From positions 66,237-119,665 of the forward strand of contig WAIB01000001.1 of the NCBI GenBank assembly GCA_009873655.1: a stretch of 53,429 bases of DNA, read 5' to 3'. The translations under genes and the position numbers were made by a program. The stretch comes from Nitrospinota bacterium (GTDB lineage: Bacteria; Nitrospinota; Nitrospinia; Nitrospinales; VA-1). Shown here one piece after another: positions 12,040-45,912 of this stretch (position 1 is its first letter; every line of letters begins with the position of its first letter). Under the pieces are notes generated by a model that made no database searches, was not told the origin of the DNA, and saw only the letters and a program-made list of their open reading frames with translations.

Positions 12040-12669
12040 TCAATAAGCTATGATTTCGGCATCTTGTATTCGCCAGGCATACCATGTTCCCACAGTTTCC
12101 ATTGGATGCCACTTTTTTCCCAGGGCAAGCATCTTTTTCGGGGATGGCAAACTCCTCATATTATAAATTTTTTTGATCCCCGCCTGGAGCCCCAGGTCTC
12201 CCAGTGGTAAAACATCTATACGACTTAAAGAAAAAATAAGGAACATTTCCGCAGTCCACCTTCCGATACCATAAACCGAGGTTAATGTTTCAATCACCTC
12301 TTCATTTTTCTGGAAGGTGAGCCGATGGGGCCTGATGGATCCATCTAAAAACCGGGCACCCAGGTCTTTCAGGTATTTCACTTTCTGGCCGGAGAGGCCG
12401 GAGCTTCTAAGCTCCGATACCGGAATTTCAGCTACTTTCTCAGGAGTTGGTTTTTTACCTTCAAACAGGTCCTGAAATCGCAGGGTGATCGATTCGGCTG
12501 CCTTGGTAGAAATTTGTTGCGCAATGATGGCTTTACACAAAACTAAAAAGTAGTTTCGATTGCGACGGAGCCTGAACTCCCCTGTTTCGCGAATGACAGC
12601 CGCCATAACCGGGTCTCTTTCGTCGAAATGGGAAAGGATTCTCTTTTTACCTGGAAACTTTTTAATCAT
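12040..12669 (-). CDS. DNA-3-methyladenine glycosylase II (AlkA-type, HhH-GPD)
   Basis: A base-excision repair enzyme removing alkylated purines. In its 209 residues the HhH-GPD core is clear: AIIAQQISTKAAESI, the helix-hairpin-helix in LTSVYGIGRWTAEMFLIF and the catalytic Asp in VLPLGDLGL. It lacks the AlkA N-terminal TBP-like domain and so resembles the short bacterial/MAG1-like form. Its start lies 9 bases after the stop of the LRR gene, as part of a leftward run aroK - LRR - glycosylase - O-methyltransferase. Confidence 0.93.
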   Translation of the reverse strand: MIKKFPGKKRILSHFDERDPVMAAVIRETGEFRLRRNRNYFLVLCKAIIAQQISTKAAESITLRFQDLFEGKKPTPEKVAEIPVSELRSSGLSGQKVKYLKDLGARFLDGSIRPHRLTFQKNEEVIETLTSVYGIGRWTAEMFLIFSLSRIDVLPLGDLGLQAGIKKIYNMRSLPSPKKMLALGKKWHPMETVGTWYAWRIQDAEIIAY

Positions 12670-12678
12670 ACGGCTTGA

Positions 12679-13491
12679 TTAACTTCGCCAATCAACCTGC
12701 AAAGCGGTCAGTTTAGGGAAATTGGGTGAATTCCTCAGTTGGTCCACCGCATGATCACTGATTTTATTGTTGTACAAATCGAGGGTTTTCAATTCGGGAA
12801 ATGCCATCGAATTATAAATCAGTTCGGCAGCAGTGTCGCCCAATCCGTTCCCTGAAAGTGAAAGAAGTTTTAGATTTTTGAAATTTTCCGATTCACAAAG
12901 AGCCTGCAATCCTTTCTCCCCCAAGCCTGTTTTTTGGAGGTAAAGCTCTTCCAACTGGACCATTTTTCCCGGGCCTCCCAAAACCTCTCCTCCTTCGGTG
13001 CCAATGGGGTTTGAATTGAGATATAAAAGCCGCAAATTTGAAAGAGTATCGGATGCTGCCAGGGCTTTTAATCCCTTTACACCAATTCGGTTCCCCTGCA
13101 GAAACAGTTTTTGCAGATTAACAAGAATTTCTGACGAAGCCAGAGCTTCGACGGCATTATCGGTAAGTTTATTGTGAGCCAGGGAAAGGGTTAATAATTT
13201 TTTTAGGGCCGGAGCCTTTACCAGCAATTCAACGCCTTCATCGAAAAATTCATTTTTATCCAGTCTCAGGTCTTTAACCTTTTGGGTTTTTTTAAAAGCC
13301 ATCAAGTCTTCGATCTCTTCCAGCAAAACCTCTTTGTCATTAAGGTCAAGTTTATAAATGGCCTTCTCACTATTTTCCAGTTCTTCCTTGGTTTCAGCTT
13401 CGTTCAATACCATCGCGGTAGAGTCATCCGGCTCATCGGCGAGAATGGTCAGGTTATTGACAACCAGGCTTTCAAACAAAGGGCTCATCAT
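12679..13491 (-). CDS. Leucine-rich repeat protein, RI-like (LRR protein 1)
   Basis: A 270-residue soluble protein with no signal peptide. After an acidic N-terminal third there are about six repeats of roughly 27 residues of the form LxxLxLxxNxLxDxGxxALA (e.g. LKKLLTLSLAHNKLTDNAVE, LKTLDLYNNKISDHAVDQL), the ribonuclease-inhibitor class of LRR. Such solenoids bind proteins. Its ATG overlaps the aroK stop codon as ATGA, so it is translationally coupled to aroK. Two further proteins of this type lie at 14728 and 16348. Partner unknown. Confidence 0.88.
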   Translation of the reverse strand: MMSPLFESLVVNNLTILADEPDDSTAMVLNEAETKEELENSEKAIYKLDLNDKEVLLEEIEDLMAFKKTQKVKDLRLDKNEFFDEGVELLVKAPALKKLLTLSLAHNKLTDNAVEALASSEILVNLQKLFLQGNRIGVKGLKALAASDTLSNLRLLYLNSNPIGTEGGEVLGGPGKMVQLEELYLQKTGLGEKGLQALCESENFKNLKLLSLSGNGLGDTAAELIYNSMAFPELKTLDLYNNKISDHAVDQLRNSPNFPKLTALQVDWRS

Positions 13492-14015
13492 TTTTCAATC
13501 CACCCTTTTGATCTTAAAAATTCAGTTATTTCCCCGGCCGTCTCTCTGGGGCGGCGCTGAGAAGTATCGCAAATAAAATCAGCAGCAGCGCGATATTTGC
13601 TTTCGCGCTCCGCTAAAATCTTTTTCTGCTCTTCTTCAAAACTCAATCCTTTTTCCAAAGAGGGGCGGTTTTTATCATGGCGGATTCTTTTAATAATGGT
13701 TTCCAGGCTTGCGGTGAGGACAATACACACCCCTTCCTTTTTAAGGTTCACTATATTTGAATCATTTAAAACCACTCCGCCCCCGCAATCTATGATGCTG
13801 TTTTGGGCTTTATTGGAAACTTCAGCCACGATTTCCGATTCCAGTTTTCGAAAACTCTCCCAGCCTTCCTTCTCAACTATTTCTGGAATAGATTTGCCAA
13901 CCGAATCGGAAATCATCTTATCAATTTTATATAGCCTCATTCGAAGCTTTTCGGAAAGTATTTTGGATATCACCGATTTTCCTGTACCCCGATAACCCAA
14001 CATTACAATATTCAC
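13488..14015 (-). CDS. aroK: Shikimate kinase
   Basis: Phosphorylates shikimate at the 3-OH with ATP, the fifth step from DAHP in aromatic amino acid synthesis. The 175-residue P-loop protein has GYRGTGKS (Walker A), KIDKMI (shikimate-binding Asp), the IPEIVEKEGWESFRKLE segment, DCGGGVV and the lid region NRPSL. The first Asp of the usual DxD is Lys here, while the substrate-binding second Asp is kept. Length is normal. It is first in a leftward set with the LRR protein and AlkA-type glycosylase, an unusual partnership. Confidence 0.97.
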   Translation of the reverse strand: MNIVMLGYRGTGKSVISKILSEKLRMRLYKIDKMISDSVGKSIPEIVEKEGWESFRKLESEIVAEVSNKAQNSIIDCGGGVVLNDSNIVNLKKEGVCIVLTASLETIIKRIRHDKNRPSLEKGLSFEEEQKKILAERESKYRAAADFICDTSQRRPRETAGEITEFLRSKGWIEK

Positions 14016-14261
14016 GGATAAATTCCCTGTTCGCCGACAATATGGCAGTGAATGAAATTACAAATAGATCAAAGACTTAAATGTTATGTTTTGAAGATTA
14101 ATAAAATATCGATAATGATGCAAACGAAAGATTTTAAACCCGTCCTCCTGCCAATGGAGCTTTCTCGACTATAAAAAACGATCGTATGATATACTTTTTC
14201 GATGTTGCAGGAAAAACCTTTAGATTCCCCTTTATCAACTTAAAATTGAAAAGAGGCAAAT

Positions 14262-14723
14262 GTGAAATACATTATCAGAGCACTTTTTGTCCTTTTAAGC
14301 ATGGCCGTTTTGGTTCCAGGAGCTTTGGCACAAGAAAACCTGGAAGAAAAAATGAAAGCTCTTTGCCAGGAAGGAAACTCAACAGCCTGCTTTAAAATTG
14401 GTGAACGGTTCAGGACGGTTGAAAGGGATAATAAAAAAGCCCTTACTTATTACGTTAAAGCTTGTGACAAAGGCTACATGACAGCTTGCACCAATGGGGG
14501 CATTCTTCTGGCCATGAAAGGAACGCCTTACAGTAAAGATTTCAAGCAAGCCCGAAAAATGTTTGATAAGGCCTGCGAAGCCGGTGAAGATCAATCTTGC
14601 TTCAATCTGGGAACCCTGAACTATAAAGAGGGCCGACAGAAAAAGGCCATCAATTACTACAAGAAGGCATGCGGAATGGGCAATCAAGCAGGTTGCGCGA
14701 GGGAAAAGAGGCTTAAACGATAG
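14262..14723 (+). CDS. Exported Sel1/HCP-type repeat protein with four CX7C pairs
   Basis: A 153-residue periplasmic protein: a cleavable signal peptide ends at GALA, followed by Sel1-like helical pairs. Each repeat carries two cysteines exactly seven residues apart (CQEGNSTAC, CDKGYMTAC, CEAGEDQSC, CGMGNQAGC), the spacing of Helicobacter cysteine-rich proteins, where each pair forms a disulfide. It therefore likely folds as a disulfide-stapled solenoid outside the cytoplasm. The third unit has the canonical AxxxFDKACEAG form. The LRR gene at 14728 starts 4 bases after its stop, so the two are co-transcribed. Confidence 0.88.
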   Translation: MKYIIRALFVLLSMAVLVPGALAQENLEEKMKALCQEGNSTACFKIGERFRTVERDNKKALTYYVKACDKGYMTACTNGGILLAMKGTPYSKDFKQARKMFDKACEAGEDQSCFNLGTLNYKEGRQKKAINYYKKACGMGNQAGCAREKRLKR

Positions 14724-14727
14724 TCTA

Positions 14728-15387
14728 ATGCCAGAAAAGTTAAAAAACTGGGAAGAGCTGTGTAACGATGGCGAGAATTACGGGGGTGAAGGTGAAAACC
14801 TTTCACCCAAAGAAAAAATCCTTTTTGAAAATATCAAGGACAAAAAAATTCTCAAAATTCAGGACGCCTATCTTTTCTCCAAAACCGGGAAAATAGAAGA
14901 GGATCACGGTCGCGATCTTGCAGAATTAATAGCGAATTTCCCCTTTGTCAAAACCATATCCAGTCTGATAATCACCCATAATCGGTTGGGACCGGAAGGG
15001 CTCCAGATTCTTGTCAAATCGCCTGTCCTGCCAAAAGTAAATTACCTGCATCTGGGCTCCAACGATTTGGGAAATGAAGGCATGGCTATCCTTGCCCAGA
15101 CCCCCCTCTTCTCGGAAGTGACTACACTGAACCTGGAATGCAATGGCATCACAGCCGAGGGAGCCAAGGCCCTGGCGACATCTCCCTATCTTACAAAGGT
15201 GGAACATCTGAACCTGGTGGACAACCGAATTGGAGATGAGGGCGCCCTGGCCATTGCGGATTCGGACAATCTCAGTAACTTAAATTACCTGCATTTAGGG
15301 GGAAACCGGATCAAATCTGAAGAAGCTAAATCTGCCTTAAAGAACTCGTCAAAATTGACGAAGCTTGAAAAGCTGAAAATTTTCTGA
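14728..15387 (+). CDS. Leucine-rich repeat protein, RI-like (LRR protein 2)
   Basis: A 219-residue soluble protein without a signal peptide. The first 60 residues are acidic and mixed; then about five RI-class repeats follow (SSLIITHNRLGPEGLQILVK, VNYLHLGSNDLGNEGMAILA, VTTLNLECNGITAEGAKALA and others). It follows the Sel1 gene by 4 bases without an obvious SD, suggesting coupling. It converges on LRR protein 3 (15404-16348). The conserved xxNxL/IGxEGxxxLA pattern is the same as in its two neighbours, so the three are probably paralogues. Confidence 0.87.
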   Translation: MPEKLKNWEELCNDGENYGGEGENLSPKEKILFENIKDKKILKIQDAYLFSKTGKIEEDHGRDLAELIANFPFVKTISSLIITHNRLGPEGLQILVKSPVLPKVNYLHLGSNDLGNEGMAILAQTPLFSEVTTLNLECNGITAEGAKALATSPYLTKVEHLNLVDNRIGDEGALAIADSDNLSNLNYLHLGGNRIKSEEAKSALKNSSKLTKLEKLKIF

Positions 15388-15403
15388 AAATTGCAGGCCT
15401 GAG

Positions 15404-16348
15404 TTAAATCGCGTTGGGATCATCGGGTCGCAACAGTTCCGGACGCGAATAATTAACCAGGCCCGAGCCCTCGTCAATTTCCTCTTTCATGATCAGAGTT
15501 TTGAGATTTTTCAGGGTTTTGCTCTCATAAATTGCCTGCGCGCCTTCAGCATCAAAATAGTTTCTGCCCACATACAATTGAGTCAAGCCGCTCATAGATT
15601 CAGATTCGCCCAAAAATTTAGCGCCTTCATTTCCAAATCTATTTTGTGAAATCCGAAGCGTTTTCAGGGATTTCCATTTTGGGGCTTCTGCTAAAATTTT
15701 CATAGACGCATCATTAATTTTATTGGCTGAAAGATCCAGCACTTCCAACTGGTCGGCTATATCCCCTTTTACCAGTTCGATAAATCCCTCTTCTTCAATG
15801 TAGCTGCGTTCCATTTCCAGTTTTTTCAATTTTGGAAAAGTGGTTGTGGTGCCCAGAGCTTTCGCGGTTTCGTTTCCCGCCTCATTCCAACCTACATCCA
15901 GAGATTCCAGGTTCTGAAAGTGGGTTGAATTCAAAAACTCCGCAATGGAGGAATCGCTCAAACGGTTATCTGAAAGAACCAGTACTTTTAAATTTTTCAG
16001 TTTTACATTTTCTGATTTGGCGACTTCACTCAATCCATTTCCCGTCAAAAAGTTAATCTGCAAATACAACTCCTCCAAACCACTGAGGTTATCGGACTCA
16101 AAAAGGGACTTTAATGCTTCATCGTTAATCTGGTTGTCGCTTAAATCGAGTGACCGGACCGCCTTGATGGGAGAGTAGTTGCCAATTATATTTATCTCGT
16201 CAGTTGCTATATATTTTCCCGATAGCTTGAGAGAACCCGGGTTCTCTTCAAGCAACGGTTTTATAATCGCTTCAAGCTTTTCAGCTTTTTCTTCATATGA
16301 GGGTTCAAACTCTTCATATTCTGCATCTCCCCCACGAACAATACCCAT
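15404..16348 (-). CDS. Leucine-rich repeat protein, RI-like (LRR protein 3)
   Basis: From the ATG at 16348, which has an AGGAGAG SD, this is a 314-residue soluble protein; the longer frame from a TTG at 16390 is less likely. An N-terminal acidic helical part is followed by about eight RI-type repeats (VRSLDLSDNQINDEALKSLF, LEELYLQINFLTGNGLSEVA, LEVLDLSANKINDASMKILA, LTQLYVGRNYFDAEGAQAIY). It is the longest of the three LRR proteins clustered within 4 kb. It faces LRR protein 2 with a gap of 16 bases. Function unknown; protein binding is the usual role of the fold. Confidence 0.88.
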   Translation of the reverse strand: MGIVRGGDAEYEEFEPSYEEKAEKLEAIIKPLLEENPGSLKLSGKYIATDEINIIGNYSPIKAVRSLDLSDNQINDEALKSLFESDNLSGLEELYLQINFLTGNGLSEVAKSENVKLKNLKVLVLSDNRLSDSSIAEFLNSTHFQNLESLDVGWNEAGNETAKALGTTTTFPKLKKLEMERSYIEEEGFIELVKGDIADQLEVLDLSANKINDASMKILAEAPKWKSLKTLRISQNRFGNEGAKFLGESESMSGLTQLYVGRNYFDAEGAQAIYESKTLKNLKTLIMKEEIDEGSGLVNYSRPELLRPDDPNAI

Positions 16349-16669: not shown

Positions 16670-16918
16670 ATGGAAATGTTTAGAACGCTGGACATTAGAG
16701 GGCTTTCATTTTTTAAGGCTTTCCAATTGGCCTCAGATGAATTCAGAAGAATAAAGAAAAACGGAATTCTAGAACTGATTGTTGATAAAAAGAAAAATTT
16801 TACGGAAGACTTTTCTAAATGGGCCAAAAGTCAGGGATGCAAAATTTCTGACATTGAAGACGACCACAGAATGGTGCGGCTTTTTATAAGGAAGGGTTCA
16901 AGAGTTGTAAAAGCATAA
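16670..16918 (+). CDS. TusA-like protein lacking the catalytic cysteine
   Basis: An 82-residue protein with the TusA/SirA layout: LDIRGLSFFKAFQLASDEFRR, then a beta strand GILELIVD and an end like VRLFIRKGS. In TusA sulfur carriers the segment reads G-L-x-C-P-x-P; here SFFKA replaces CPxP, so the sulfur-accepting Cys is missing. The only Cys is in SQGCKIS. It therefore cannot be an ordinary sulfurtransferase. A strong GGGAGGG SD lies 7 bases before the ATG, and a structured terminator follows, so it is a single-gene unit. It may act as a binding or regulatory protein. Confidence 0.65.
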   Translation: MEMFRTLDIRGLSFFKAFQLASDEFRRIKKNGILELIVDKKKNFTEDFSKWAKSQGCKISDIEDDHRMVRLFIRKGSRVVKA

Positions 16919-17028: not shown

Positions 17029-17793
17029 TTATTTGTTTTTTTCATAAATTATTCTTAAACCATTCAGAGTCAAAAATGGATCCAGGGTATCGATCACAGA
17101 AGTTTCACTAGTAATCCAATCGATTATACCCCCTGTGGCTACCACATGAGCGTTTTGTCCCAGTTCACTTTTTATCTGTTTTACCAATGCCTCAACCATC
17201 CCGGAAAACCCATAGACGGCACCCGAACGCAGGCTTTCCACGGTGGATTTACCTATCACCTTCTCAGGAAAAGTCATATCAACCCGGGGTAGTTTGGCCG
17301 TATTTTTAAAAAGTGCCTCAAGGGAAATCTGAACCCCCGGAAAAATGGAGCCTCCCAGGTATTCCCCCTTTTCCGAGACAACATCAAATGTGGTGGCGGT
17401 TCCAAAATCAACAATGATCAAAGGTCCGCCATATTTTTCAAAAGCAGCCACAGAATTTACAATTCGGTCCGCACCTACTTCCGACGGATTGCGATACAGA
17501 ATGGAAATTCCCGTTTTGACCCCGGGACCGACTATCAAAGGTTCACAGGAAAAATATTTCCTCGCCATGCCCTGCAAAATGGGAACCAGCGGGGGAACCA
17601 CACAGGCGATCACTATATCGTCGATGGTCTCCGTTTCCACGTTGTTCAGCAAAATGAATTCCTTTATAAGAACCCAATATTCATCCGAGGTCCGGTTCCA
17701 CTCGGTCCGAATTCTCCAGTGAGTGAGAAGTTTTTCTCCAGAAAACAACCCTATTACATTATTTGAATTTCCAACATCAATTACTAGGAGCAT
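17029..17793 (-). CDS. coaX: Type III pantothenate kinase
   Basis: Phosphorylates pantothenate in the first step of coenzyme A synthesis. The 254-residue protein shows the ASKHA-fold phosphate motifs: LLVIDVGNSNNVIGLF at the N-terminus, the substrate region EVGADRIVNSVAAF, LIIVDFGTATTFDVV (phosphate 2) and VVATGGIIDWI. GADR and the Asp of DFGTATT are typical of type III enzymes, which are not feedback-inhibited by CoA. AAGGATT lies directly before the ATG. It stands alone; no birA is beside it, as is often the case elsewhere. Confidence 0.97.
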   Translation of the reverse strand: MLLVIDVGNSNNVIGLFSGEKLLTHWRIRTEWNRTSDEYWVLIKEFILLNNVETETIDDIVIACVVPPLVPILQGMARKYFSCEPLIVGPGVKTGISILYRNPSEVGADRIVNSVAAFEKYGGPLIIVDFGTATTFDVVSEKGEYLGGSIFPGVQISLEALFKNTAKLPRVDMTFPEKVIGKSTVESLRSGAVYGFSGMVEALVKQIKSELGQNAHVVATGGIIDWITSETSVIDTLDPFLTLNGLRIIYEKNK

Positions 17794-42675: not shown

Positions 42676-45600
42676 CTAGTCTTCACAAACGGTGCGAAAG
42701 CCAAGAAAGGAAGTGCAATAGTTTTTAATGAAAGAAATTCGGCGCCAGGGAGCAATATTTTTAAAATGGGTTATAAAACTTCCCCCTCTTGCTATTTTAT
42801 AAGTCAACCCATTTGAGGGACCGTTTGAATGATTGCTTCTGGGATGATCATCTTCCACCCATTCGAATACATTTCCAAACAGGTCCGTGATGCCGCCAAA
42901 GTATTCATTTTCAGGAAAATGATCAACGGGCAACGTTCCATATATGCCTGTTTCTTCAATATTGCAAAACTCAACGACCCTGTCTTCATCCCAGAAAAAT
43001 TGATCTGGAGTCGCTTTCCCAAAATTGCTGGCAACATATTCCCATTCCTTTTCAAAAGGAAGGCGAATCGTCTGCCCCGTTGTTTCGCTTTTCCACTTGC
43101 AAAATGCTTTAGCATCGTTCCAGGTGACTTGTGTCACGGGATGATTATGTTTTCCATAAAGTGAGTCTGGCTGACTATCAGGGCAAAGCCAGAAAGCGTC
43201 TTTCTCTGGAGTGAGACTGGGATTGGAAAAAGAGGACCTGGGTTCATGGTCGCCATGTAAGGCCAAATTCCCATGATGAAAAACAATGGCGTCAATTAGA
43301 GATTCCGCCTCTGTTTTATATTTGGTTTCGTTTATGAATTTGAAAAATTCTACATTTGTTACCGGATATTTTCTCATTAAAAACGGTTTCTCAATGGTGA
43401 TTTCCCGGTGAGGGGCGGAATCTTTTTTCCGAGGGTGACCCATGATAAATTTTCCGGTGGGTATTTTTACCCATTCATCCCATTTTTCACTGAACTTGTA
43501 TAGATATTCTGTTATATGAGCATTTTTTTCATTGATTGCAGCTGAACCAAGGCGCTGGCGGATCGCCAACGGCCATTCCGCTTTTGCAAGTGCATCGTCA
43601 TATTCCAGGGGTTTCTTTTCATCTTCCTCGGGAACGATTTCTACCTGGCCTTTTTCTTTCTCGACTTGAAAAGCTTCTGAAAGTTCTTCAAAGGCTTTTC
43701 CAAGGTGGGTGAGCTTGTCTTCGTAATGGGAAAGGCTTTCCAGCAATTCTGCCTTTCGCGATTCATCTTCCTCATTCATGGATTTTTTTACGTCAGCCAG
43801 TTCCTGTACAAAATTTTGATATTCTTCCACCCGTCCGCGCAGATCTTTCTCCATTACATCGACCATGGATTCGCGATGTTTTAGTCTTTCCTGTAAAACT
43901 TTTTCTGCGGCTATGGTTTCTTCGGTTATTAGTTTTTCCTTGTCCTTCAGGTTAGAGGTCAGTCGCACAGCCTCTTCTTCCATGGTGGCTATCCGTTTTT
44001 TAAATTCCTCGTATTCCGTTCCTTGTGACTGGAGAATTTGATTGTAGGTTGTTTTGAAATCATCGAGGAAATTTTTTACCTCCACCTGGTGTTGGAGGAC
44101 ATCCGATTTTACAAGTTGAATTTCCTGAAGTTCGGTTCTTATTTCTTCTTCAACTTCCTCAATGCTTTGTCGACTGGTTTTTTCTTCAGCCATCTGCTGC
44201 TGCTGAAGCTCAAGGATTTTTCTTTCTTCCGCTTCTAATTCTTCTTCTTTGTTATCCAGGGCCATTTCCTTTTCGATCTGGCCTACTTCCAGCGAGTTTT
44301 TAAACTCTTCGAACTCCTGGTTCATGATTTTGAGCTCTTCGGTTTCTCTTTCTAAAAGTCCTTTTTCTTTCTCCCGAAGGCGTTTTTGGTCTTCCAGGAG
44401 AGCTTCGTTTTTTTCTGCCAGTTTCTTTTGCTCTTTTTCATGCTCCTCTTCAAGCTCGGCAAGCTTTTCTTTTAATTCTTCCTCGTACTTGGGCCGGCCT
44501 TCGTCCATGGCCTTGTATAGTTTGCGTTTTCTTTTTAAAAGGTTTTCCTGTGTTTTAGCGGCGGTTTTTATCTGGTCGATGGCAAAATTTCCGCCTTCGA
44601 TTCCACTCATTTCCTTGATGAGCGAAGCTTTCTCGAGGTTGTTTTCCTTTTCTTCTTTATTGAGCAGTTTTTGTTTTCTTGAAATTTCCTTTTCCAGTTT
44701 TTCTAATTCAGCGAGCCTTTTTTTAGTTTGTTCATCGGCTTTTCTTTGGGCTTCCAGAGCAAGGCCCTGCTCGCGAATTCGCAGCCTTTCGTTTTCTCTT
44801 CCCAGGCGTTCTTCATCCTCTTCGAACTCTTCGAGTCGGCGAATATGGTATTCCGATCGGCGCTGATATTCTGTTTCCAGCTCTTCTTTTTTTGTGTCGT
44901 AGCTTTCCTTTAATTTGGCTTTAAACAGTTTTTTCTCGTTTTCAAGCGTTTTGGAAAGTTTGAGCAATTGTTGGTTTTTCTTTGCCTGCTGGTTTGCCGT
45001 TCGCTTCAACTGCACTTGTTTTTCTTTGGCCGCCTTGAAAGCTTTCTCTTTGTAATTATGAATCTCCTGTTCTTCCTGGACCAGTTTTTCCATGAGCTCG
45101 GTCATTTCATCAAATTTTGCCCTGAAAATCTGGTCCCTTCGGGTGAAGTCTGTATCCATACGCGTGCGTGTGGATTCATGATCTGTTAAAAGCTGATTTT
45201 TTTCTTCTCGAAGCTCGCTTAACTCTTTTTGGGCTTCTTCCAATTCTGAGCGGATGCGAATGTTTTCTTTTTCCGATTGTTCTTTAGCCTGATCAGTATG
45301 TTTCTGCTCTTCCTCCCGCAATTTTTGAATCTGCGATCTGAATTCGGAATTTTCTTTTTCCATTTTCACCTTGGCTTCTTCAAGGTGTTTTTCTTTTTCC
45401 AGAATTTCCTTCATTTGCTTGTTTGCGAGCTCTTCTTTTTCTTTAAGCCTTTGAAGCTGGTTCTCGAATTCCCCTTTGAGTTCCTCCGGGAGATTGAAAG
45501 TTATTTCCGACTCTTTAAATTTTCGACCCTGATCCGTAGGTTCAATTTTTGCGGGAGGGGTCTCCGTTCCTTCAAATTGGATGAAATTTAAATTGCTATC

Positions 45601-45912
45601 GAGGGATAGAGACGCCGGGTTTCCCCGCTCCGACATCAAGGCGAGCAACTCGTTGTTTAATTTTTCCCGCAGGGAATTTAACCAGGTTCTTTGTTCTTCT
45701 TCGTTATCGGGTAAGGATGAAAAATTTCCCGAATTCCGGATTTTGTCGATTAAAACTTCAAAGGGAACAGGGGGCACGGATTCTGGCGGCTGTCCCGTTG
45801 AATAGAATTCCTGAATGATTTGCAGGAGGGATACAGGTTCGGGGCTCCCTGTTTGGGAATAATGGTCGATGAGCTCCTGGACATCTTTTAGACTGAAATT
45901 TTTCCGGGCCAT
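42676..45912 (-). CDS. Giant coiled-coil protein with C-terminal CLec/FGE-sulfatase domain
   Basis: A 1078-residue protein with no signal peptide or membrane span. After an N-terminal part (about 1-150) comes a very long heptad-rich, Glu/Lys/Gln-dominated coiled coil (about 150-780), then an FGE-sulfatase (DUF323/SUMF1) fold at about 814-1078: KIPTGKFIMG, FLMRKYPVTNVEFFKFI, HPVTQVTWNDAKAFCKW, IRLPFEKEWEYVAS, GITDLFGNVFEWVED and IARGGSFITHF ... LGFRTV. In true formylglycine-generating enzymes two Cys follow RGGS; here FITHFKN replaces the first site, so catalysis is doubtful and a ligand-binding CLec role is likelier. No clear SD. It probably forms a filament or scaffold. Confidence 0.85.
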   Translation of the reverse strand: MARKNFSLKDVQELIDHYSQTGSPEPVSLLQIIQEFYSTGQPPESVPPVPFEVLIDKIRNSGNFSSLPDNEEEQRTWLNSLREKLNNELLALMSERGNPASLSLDSNLNFIQFEGTETPPAKIEPTDQGRKFKESEITFNLPEELKGEFENQLQRLKEKEELANKQMKEILEKEKHLEEAKVKMEKENSEFRSQIQKLREEEQKHTDQAKEQSEKENIRIRSELEEAQKELSELREEKNQLLTDHESTRTRMDTDFTRRDQIFRAKFDEMTELMEKLVQEEQEIHNYKEKAFKAAKEKQVQLKRTANQQAKKNQQLLKLSKTLENEKKLFKAKLKESYDTKKEELETEYQRRSEYHIRRLEEFEEDEERLGRENERLRIREQGLALEAQRKADEQTKKRLAELEKLEKEISRKQKLLNKEEKENNLEKASLIKEMSGIEGGNFAIDQIKTAAKTQENLLKRKRKLYKAMDEGRPKYEEELKEKLAELEEEHEKEQKKLAEKNEALLEDQKRLREKEKGLLERETEELKIMNQEFEEFKNSLEVGQIEKEMALDNKEEELEAEERKILELQQQQMAEEKTSRQSIEEVEEEIRTELQEIQLVKSDVLQHQVEVKNFLDDFKTTYNQILQSQGTEYEEFKKRIATMEEEAVRLTSNLKDKEKLITEETIAAEKVLQERLKHRESMVDVMEKDLRGRVEEYQNFVQELADVKKSMNEEDESRKAELLESLSHYEDKLTHLGKAFEELSEAFQVEKEKGQVEIVPEEDEKKPLEYDDALAKAEWPLAIRQRLGSAAINEKNAHITEYLYKFSEKWDEWVKIPTGKFIMGHPRKKDSAPHREITIEKPFLMRKYPVTNVEFFKFINETKYKTEAESLIDAIVFHHGNLALHGDHEPRSSFSNPSLTPEKDAFWLCPDSQPDSLYGKHNHPVTQVTWNDAKAFCKWKSETTGQTIRLPFEKEWEYVASNFGKATPDQFFWDEDRVVEFCNIEETGIYGTLPVDHFPENEYFGGITDLFGNVFEWVEDDHPRSNHSNGPSNGLTYKIARGGSFITHFKNIAPWRRISFIKNYCTSFLGFRTVCED

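Follow-up and report, generated by a model that had tools for sequence, protein, structure and literature searches.

Three leucine-rich repeat proteins in a conserved gene block

The window analysed here, 53,429 nucleotides on contig 11 of the 2.53-Mb draft genome of a Nitrospinota bacterium, contains three genes for leucine-rich repeat (LRR) proteins, which we call A, B and C. Protein A (12679..13491, minus strand) has 270 amino acids (aa), about 8 repeats and a conserved N-terminal P-x-F-x-S-L motif. Protein B (14728..15387, plus strand) has 219 aa, with 5 clear repeats behind a conserved N-terminal WExLxNDGxxY. Protein C (15404..16348, minus strand) has 8 clear repeats between two conserved ends of low model confidence, MGIxRGGxxEY and VNYSRPELLRP; its length of 314 aa is counted from an ATG common to the orthologues, while the listed TTG start would give 328 aa. 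All three match the LRR_6 profile (E-value = 6.2e-19, 7.5e-22 and 3.7e-19 for A, B and C, respectively) and contain 7, 4 and 6 spacings of 27 residues, compared to a maximum of 3, 2 and 2 among 500 shuffles each. These results confirm the three solenoids of 270, 219 and 314 residues that the original prediction, made from the DNA letters and their translations, had placed within about 4 kb.

The trio is interleaved with two other genes, again as predicted. The shikimate kinase gene aroK (13488..14015, minus strand; PF01202) is a conserved neighbour and overlaps A by an ATGA at 13488-13491. A Sel1-repeat protein with CX7C pairs (14262..14723, plus strand; PF08238) is encoded directly upstream of B and is kept there; it has a signal sequence by eye and presumably resembles the cysteine-rich Hcp-type proteins. 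The block is flanked on the side of A by its conserved neighbour, an alkA-type HhH-GPD base-excision DNA glycosylase (12040..12669, minus strand; PF00730). Beyond C follow the conserved genes for a TusA-domain protein (16670..16918, plus strand; PF01206) and the type III pantothenate kinase coaX (17029..17793, minus strand; PF03309). The arrangement glycosylase / A / aroK, Sel1 / B, C / TusA / pantothenate kinase is kept in most loci read.

LRR_6 proteins are found in 64/64 genomes of the Nitrospinota order to which this genome belongs and in 0/13 other genomes of the phylum. They are also absent from 14 control genomes, the sole survey beyond the phylum besides a scan of contigs with B. Thus, the expectation that such proteins are uncommon in free-living bacteria holds for the controls and fails for this order. 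At E-value ≤ 1e-50, B is present in 54/64 genomes of the order and in 0/13 of the rest of the phylum; among the 31 genomes with completeness of 90% or more and contamination of 5% or less (28 inside the order, 3 outside), B is found in all 28 of the order. Near-full-length matches to A (E-value ≤ 6e-46) occur in 53/64 genomes, with a partial one in G049, and the weaker matches to A belong to the paralogue group of locus L014. Matches to both A and aroK are missing from genome G016. The search for C covered 55 genomes of the order and found it in 49 (E-value ≤ 1e-40). In 43 of these, C and aroK are at most 10 kb apart; four carry C on another contig and two have no aroK match.

At these strict cut-offs B and C have a single match per genome, except for G030, where the block is present twice, aroK included, and for pieces in G066 and G054. 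The lengths and repeat numbers of A, B and C are almost fixed across four families, and B is more conserved than AroK in 27/27 loci holding both (the window's own locus excluded). The contig scan with B gave 15 loci, 13 of them with titles of the Nitrospina or Nitrospinota type, the closest being a Nitrospinaceae metagenome-assembled genome (MAG; 89%). The remaining two are a contig titled Nitrospirae, on which the block is conserved (L058), and a weak Poribacteria match.

Repeat length, fold and class

The repeat spacing is 27 residues in 645 of 764 intervals (116 proteins), with the consensus LktLdLsgNrIGDEGAkALAeSptLgn (170 called repeats, genome G009). AlphaFold2 models of B and C (mean predicted local distance difference test score, pLDDT, of 89.9 and 87.3) give a confident strand-helix solenoid by DSSP. 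Profile and fold searches match the LRRs of RipG4/GALA, LegL1, ribonuclease inhibitor (RI), RanGAP and NLR proteins.

The three proteins had been typed as RI-class. The likeness to mammalian RI and to RanGAP, both cytosolic binders, lies in the strand-helix solenoid, and this part of the assignment agrees with the models of B and C. RI-class LRRs alternate between repeats of 28 and 29 residues, in contrast to the 27 residues found in the family of A to C, and the query template-modelling scores (TM-scores) of RI entries are just 0.39-0.66. We therefore reject the RI-class label on repeat length; the motif is GALA-like.

The best bacterial profile and fold matches are RipG4, a Ralstonia GALA-LRR, and LegL1 of Legionella (9j7j and 4xa9). 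According to PMC2244805, GALA-LRRs have repeats of 24 residues, wrongly labelled RI in databases, with a motif of Ile-Gly-Asp followed by Gly/Ala-Ala. The motif recurs in the consensus of the Nitrospinota repeats, whereas the repeat length of 24 differs from the 27 found here. GALA proteins are moreover F-box-bearing secreted effectors. We found no F-box domain in A to C at E-value ≤ 1e-3; one F-box-protein model matches the LRR repeats below this cut-off. With the best bacterial structure matches and a similar motif among such effectors, the Nitrospinota proteins might also be aimed at eukaryotes. Nonetheless, A to C carry neither an F-box domain nor a clear signal sequence, LRR_6 occurs in every genome of the order and the orthologues sit at conserved places, and we give an effector role next to no probability.

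Since the GALA motif is shared and the repeat length is not, we file these proteins as neither RI nor GALA and regard them as a new form of single-domain LRR binder. Other bacteria also hold large LRR sets. In free-living planctomycetes such as Gemmata, LRR paralogue families carry a TIGR02996 domain, for which A to C give no match at E-value ≤ 0.1. Leptospira likewise has many LRR paralogues in one bacterium; these have shorter repeats and are largely exported. The literature on Nitrospina, Nitrospinota or Nitrospinae with LRR contains no report of a comparable set within the coverage of our search, outside which most subscription journals fall. One paper that such a search brings up concerns death-like domains. 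A chart of LRR gene fractions in sponge MAGs, seven of them Nitrospinota, does not describe such a set in the part of the source available.

An order-wide set of LRR proteins

The trio belongs to a larger repertoire. This genome has 22 LRR open reading frames (ORFs), and the counts in five genomes of four families are 22, 23, 23, 25 and 24. We located the LRR loci of G009, G037, G038 and G039 by using B as the query at E-value ≤ 1e-3, which may overlook LRRs that are more distant; G015 was also scanned and is not in the counts. Reciprocal best matches resolve the ORFs into 19 complete five-way cliques, 4 complete four-way cliques, 1 pair and 4 single ORFs, two of the latter being pieces of one cut gene (the clique counts include the LRR of G039 locus L158, missed by the motif filter). 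A, B and C each have one orthologue in every one of the five genomes and make up three of the complete five-way cliques. Length and called repeat number are near-constant within orthogroups. Two groups present in all of the other four genomes are missing from G000, possibly owing to the 92% completeness of its assembly.

At the end of contig C59 (L001, 4868-5761), two ORF pieces match one LRR protein of 490-519 aa in relatives. The contig ends inside this gene, whose reading frame also looks broken, and both pieces were left out of the tree described below.

Genomic positions are conserved as well, although unevenly: at least one neighbouring gene is common to 20/20 orthologue pairs between G000 and G037 and to 16/19 pairs between G000 and G009. 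As a control, compared by copy number only, there are 5 and 13 GGDEF proteins in the two single-contig genomes that each have 23 LRRs; the smaller of these genomes is rated 86% complete.

Sequence comparison supports the view that A, B and C are members of one family. The original prediction had further read an expansion by duplication from their differing repeat numbers and proposed a repeat alignment among the three to test paralogy. We made this comparison against the genome's remaining LRRs and those of the order. Ranked among the 21 other LRR ORFs of the genome, A and B find each other at 10 and 7, A and C at 11 and 9, and B and C at 18 and 14. The repeats of the trio show an identity of 0.238-0.249 to one another, no higher than to the genome's other LRRs (0.245-0.284). 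A recent local duplication is not supported by ranks from 7th to 18th and by this identity, and the fixed lengths and repeat numbers also speak against it.

In the tree, A, B and C each group with their own orthologues beside different groups (support 88-94), and the deeper order is left open. In this three-genome tree, all 23 groups of 2-3 rows are held together with Shimodaira-Hasegawa-like approximate likelihood ratio (SH-aLRT) support of 97-100. Against the verdict of no local duplication, a clade of A, B and C is not rejected by the approximately unbiased test (p-AU = 0.51). Given this result and the open deep branching, an old tandem origin may still apply.

Export was judged by an N-terminal hydrophobicity score only. 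The original prediction gave none of the three proteins a signal peptide, which fits the low scores of B (-0.2) and C (0.8, from the upstream TTG start) and is less clear for A, with an intermediate score of 1.8. Four LRR groups look exported, having an N-terminal hydrophobic stretch with scores of 2.3-3.0 in 17 of 19 members. Judged in this way, most members of the set look cytosolic.

Conservation of the concave face

We take repeat positions 3, 5, 7 and 8 to be concave, as is general for the LRR fold. At these positions, identity is 0.568 between orthologues of different families and 0.086 between paralogues, for which this is the most variable class; the corresponding values for convex positions are 0.383 and 0.159. 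Orthologue identity exceeds paralogue identity by 0.53 at concave, by 0.40 at core and by 0.27 at convex positions. Concave identity is higher than convex identity in 23/23 orthogroups (Wilcoxon, p value = 2.4e-7). In GALA proteins, by contrast, the convex face is reported to be more prone to positive selection.

Deeper sets of orthologues give the same picture, with concave positions varying less than convex ones in A, B and C (p value = 2e-4, 3e-6 and 1e-5, respectively). These alignments contain 36, 42 and 34 non-redundant rows, after removal of sequences with less than 90% of the reference length or with at least 97% identity to a kept row. Locus L061 was left out of all alignments, L058 out of that of A, and L052, L054, L055 and L059 out of that of C (cut, broken in frame, or with C outside the locus). 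Conserved stretches also lie inside segments with pLDDT < 50, at about residues 8-19 of B and at residues 1-11 and 298-308 of C.

Concave residues that are specific to each member and constant within it would be expected of proteins that each bind one constant partner of their own. The proteins might instead be generic solenoids without member-specific partners (e.g. assembly chaperones or structural filler), a view in line with the single-domain make-up of A to C and the weak concave excess of some members. We consider this quite unlikely: the concave conservation is member-specific in 23/23 groups, and the near-invariant concave face of B is less variable than B's own core (entropy 0.32 v 0.51). 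The concave residues of B include the row T83/H84, H108, E137, D165 and H189.

Another alternative is a role in immunity or phage defence, in which the LRRs would sense foreign molecules. The LRRs of NOD2, NLRP and NLRX1 are among the profile and fold matches. However, A to C have no STAND NTPase or effector domain and no PADLOC match, the turnover of the repertoire is small, and the concave face is conserved rather than diversified, all of which makes a sensor role highly improbable.

A proposed repertoire of binding modules

Our best reading, which we favour with moderate confidence, is that the set is an old repertoire that has since been frozen; its members, mostly cytosolic, would be binding modules with one constant partner each. 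About 23 LRR proteins, including A, B and C, would have been distinct already in the ancestor of the order, following duplication that probably took place in the stem lineage. Since then nearly every member would have been inherited vertically, in single copy and at near-constant length. The curved solenoid of each member would present concave side chains specific to it and constant within it, fitted to a single partner that is most likely one conserved protein. The conserved low-confidence segments at the N-terminus of B and at both ends of C are likely to form a second contact; B and C would then be adaptors or scaffolds and not plain inhibitors. A binding or scaffold function, the latter among the roles first suggested for the trio, appears the best reading. 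More tentatively, and with considerable doubt, we suggest that these proteins, about 23 in number, serve the order as a frozen set of dedicated adaptors, every one of them tied to a housekeeping or respiratory partner of its own; together they would form an organising cell layer missing from the other orders of the phylum.

Several observations count against a repertoire of modules with constant partners. In single genome pairs, concave identity exceeds convex identity in 21/22, 19/20 and 18/19 groups, not in all, and the concave excess in pairwise identity is small for C (0.34 v 0.29) and for a group of 450 aa (0.35 v 0.34). Within the repeat, the excess is slight at concave position 3 and fair at convex positions 12-13. 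The repeat caller yields 4.4 repeats per shuffled protein compared to 7.6 per real protein, which blurs the classes. Conserved concave residues could instead bind a small ligand or a metal, or mediate self-association. Measured against the G037 orthologues, the median identity of 20 LRR pairs is 53.7% compared to 59.8% for 105 syntenic neighbour comparisons, so the LRR set evolves slightly faster than its surroundings. A can also be lost: in G013 (L044) aroK and the glycosylase gene have no A between them, and there is no match at E-value ≤ 1e-30. Finally, B looks cytosolic and its operon neighbour Sel1 is predicted to be exported, so neighbours are not obviously partners.

The last two observations bear equally on the idea that each LRR protein binds and tunes the product of the adjacent gene, as A might do with AroK. 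Adjacency is conserved, A and aroK overlap, and other LRR genes lie by conserved accA and lpxD, polyA-polymerase-type, hisI and algH, or nuoB genes, and beside conserved GGDEF-PilZ, FGE-sulfatase-domain, ATE and AAA/MgsA-type genes. Yet several conserved neighbours are on the opposite strand, G013 retains aroK without A, and in G038 C lies about 8.5 kb and B about 11 kb from aroK. Regulation of neighbours is, in our view, unlikely, though less so than the other alternatives above.

LRR proteins are often fast-evolving recognition parts, for example of receptors and effectors. In contrast, the order that includes the marine nitrite oxidiser Nitrospina keeps about 23 of them in single copy, and this frozen set is a natural collection of recognition surfaces. 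The hunt for partners is tractable because 64 genomes let each binding face be read from conservation. The loss of A in G013 is a natural one and could aid such a search by co-loss.

Neighbours differ among the LRR groups, and the respiratory ones include nuoB, an NADH-dehydrogenase gene of the 51-kDa type, and a cytochrome c gene with a cytochrome-bd-like subunit. A short LRR group adjoins the cytochrome c gene in G037 (L125, 3997-4479) and G039 (L158, 1985-2464); in G037 the cytochrome-bd-like subunit is also beside them. Two LRR groups outside the window adjoin FGE-sulfatase-domain genes. Within the window, a 1078-aa protein (42676-45912, minus strand) combines a C-terminal FGE-sulfatase domain with a very long charged region that looks coiled-coil-like by eye, and its ORF coincides with a strong AT skew at 43-46 kb.

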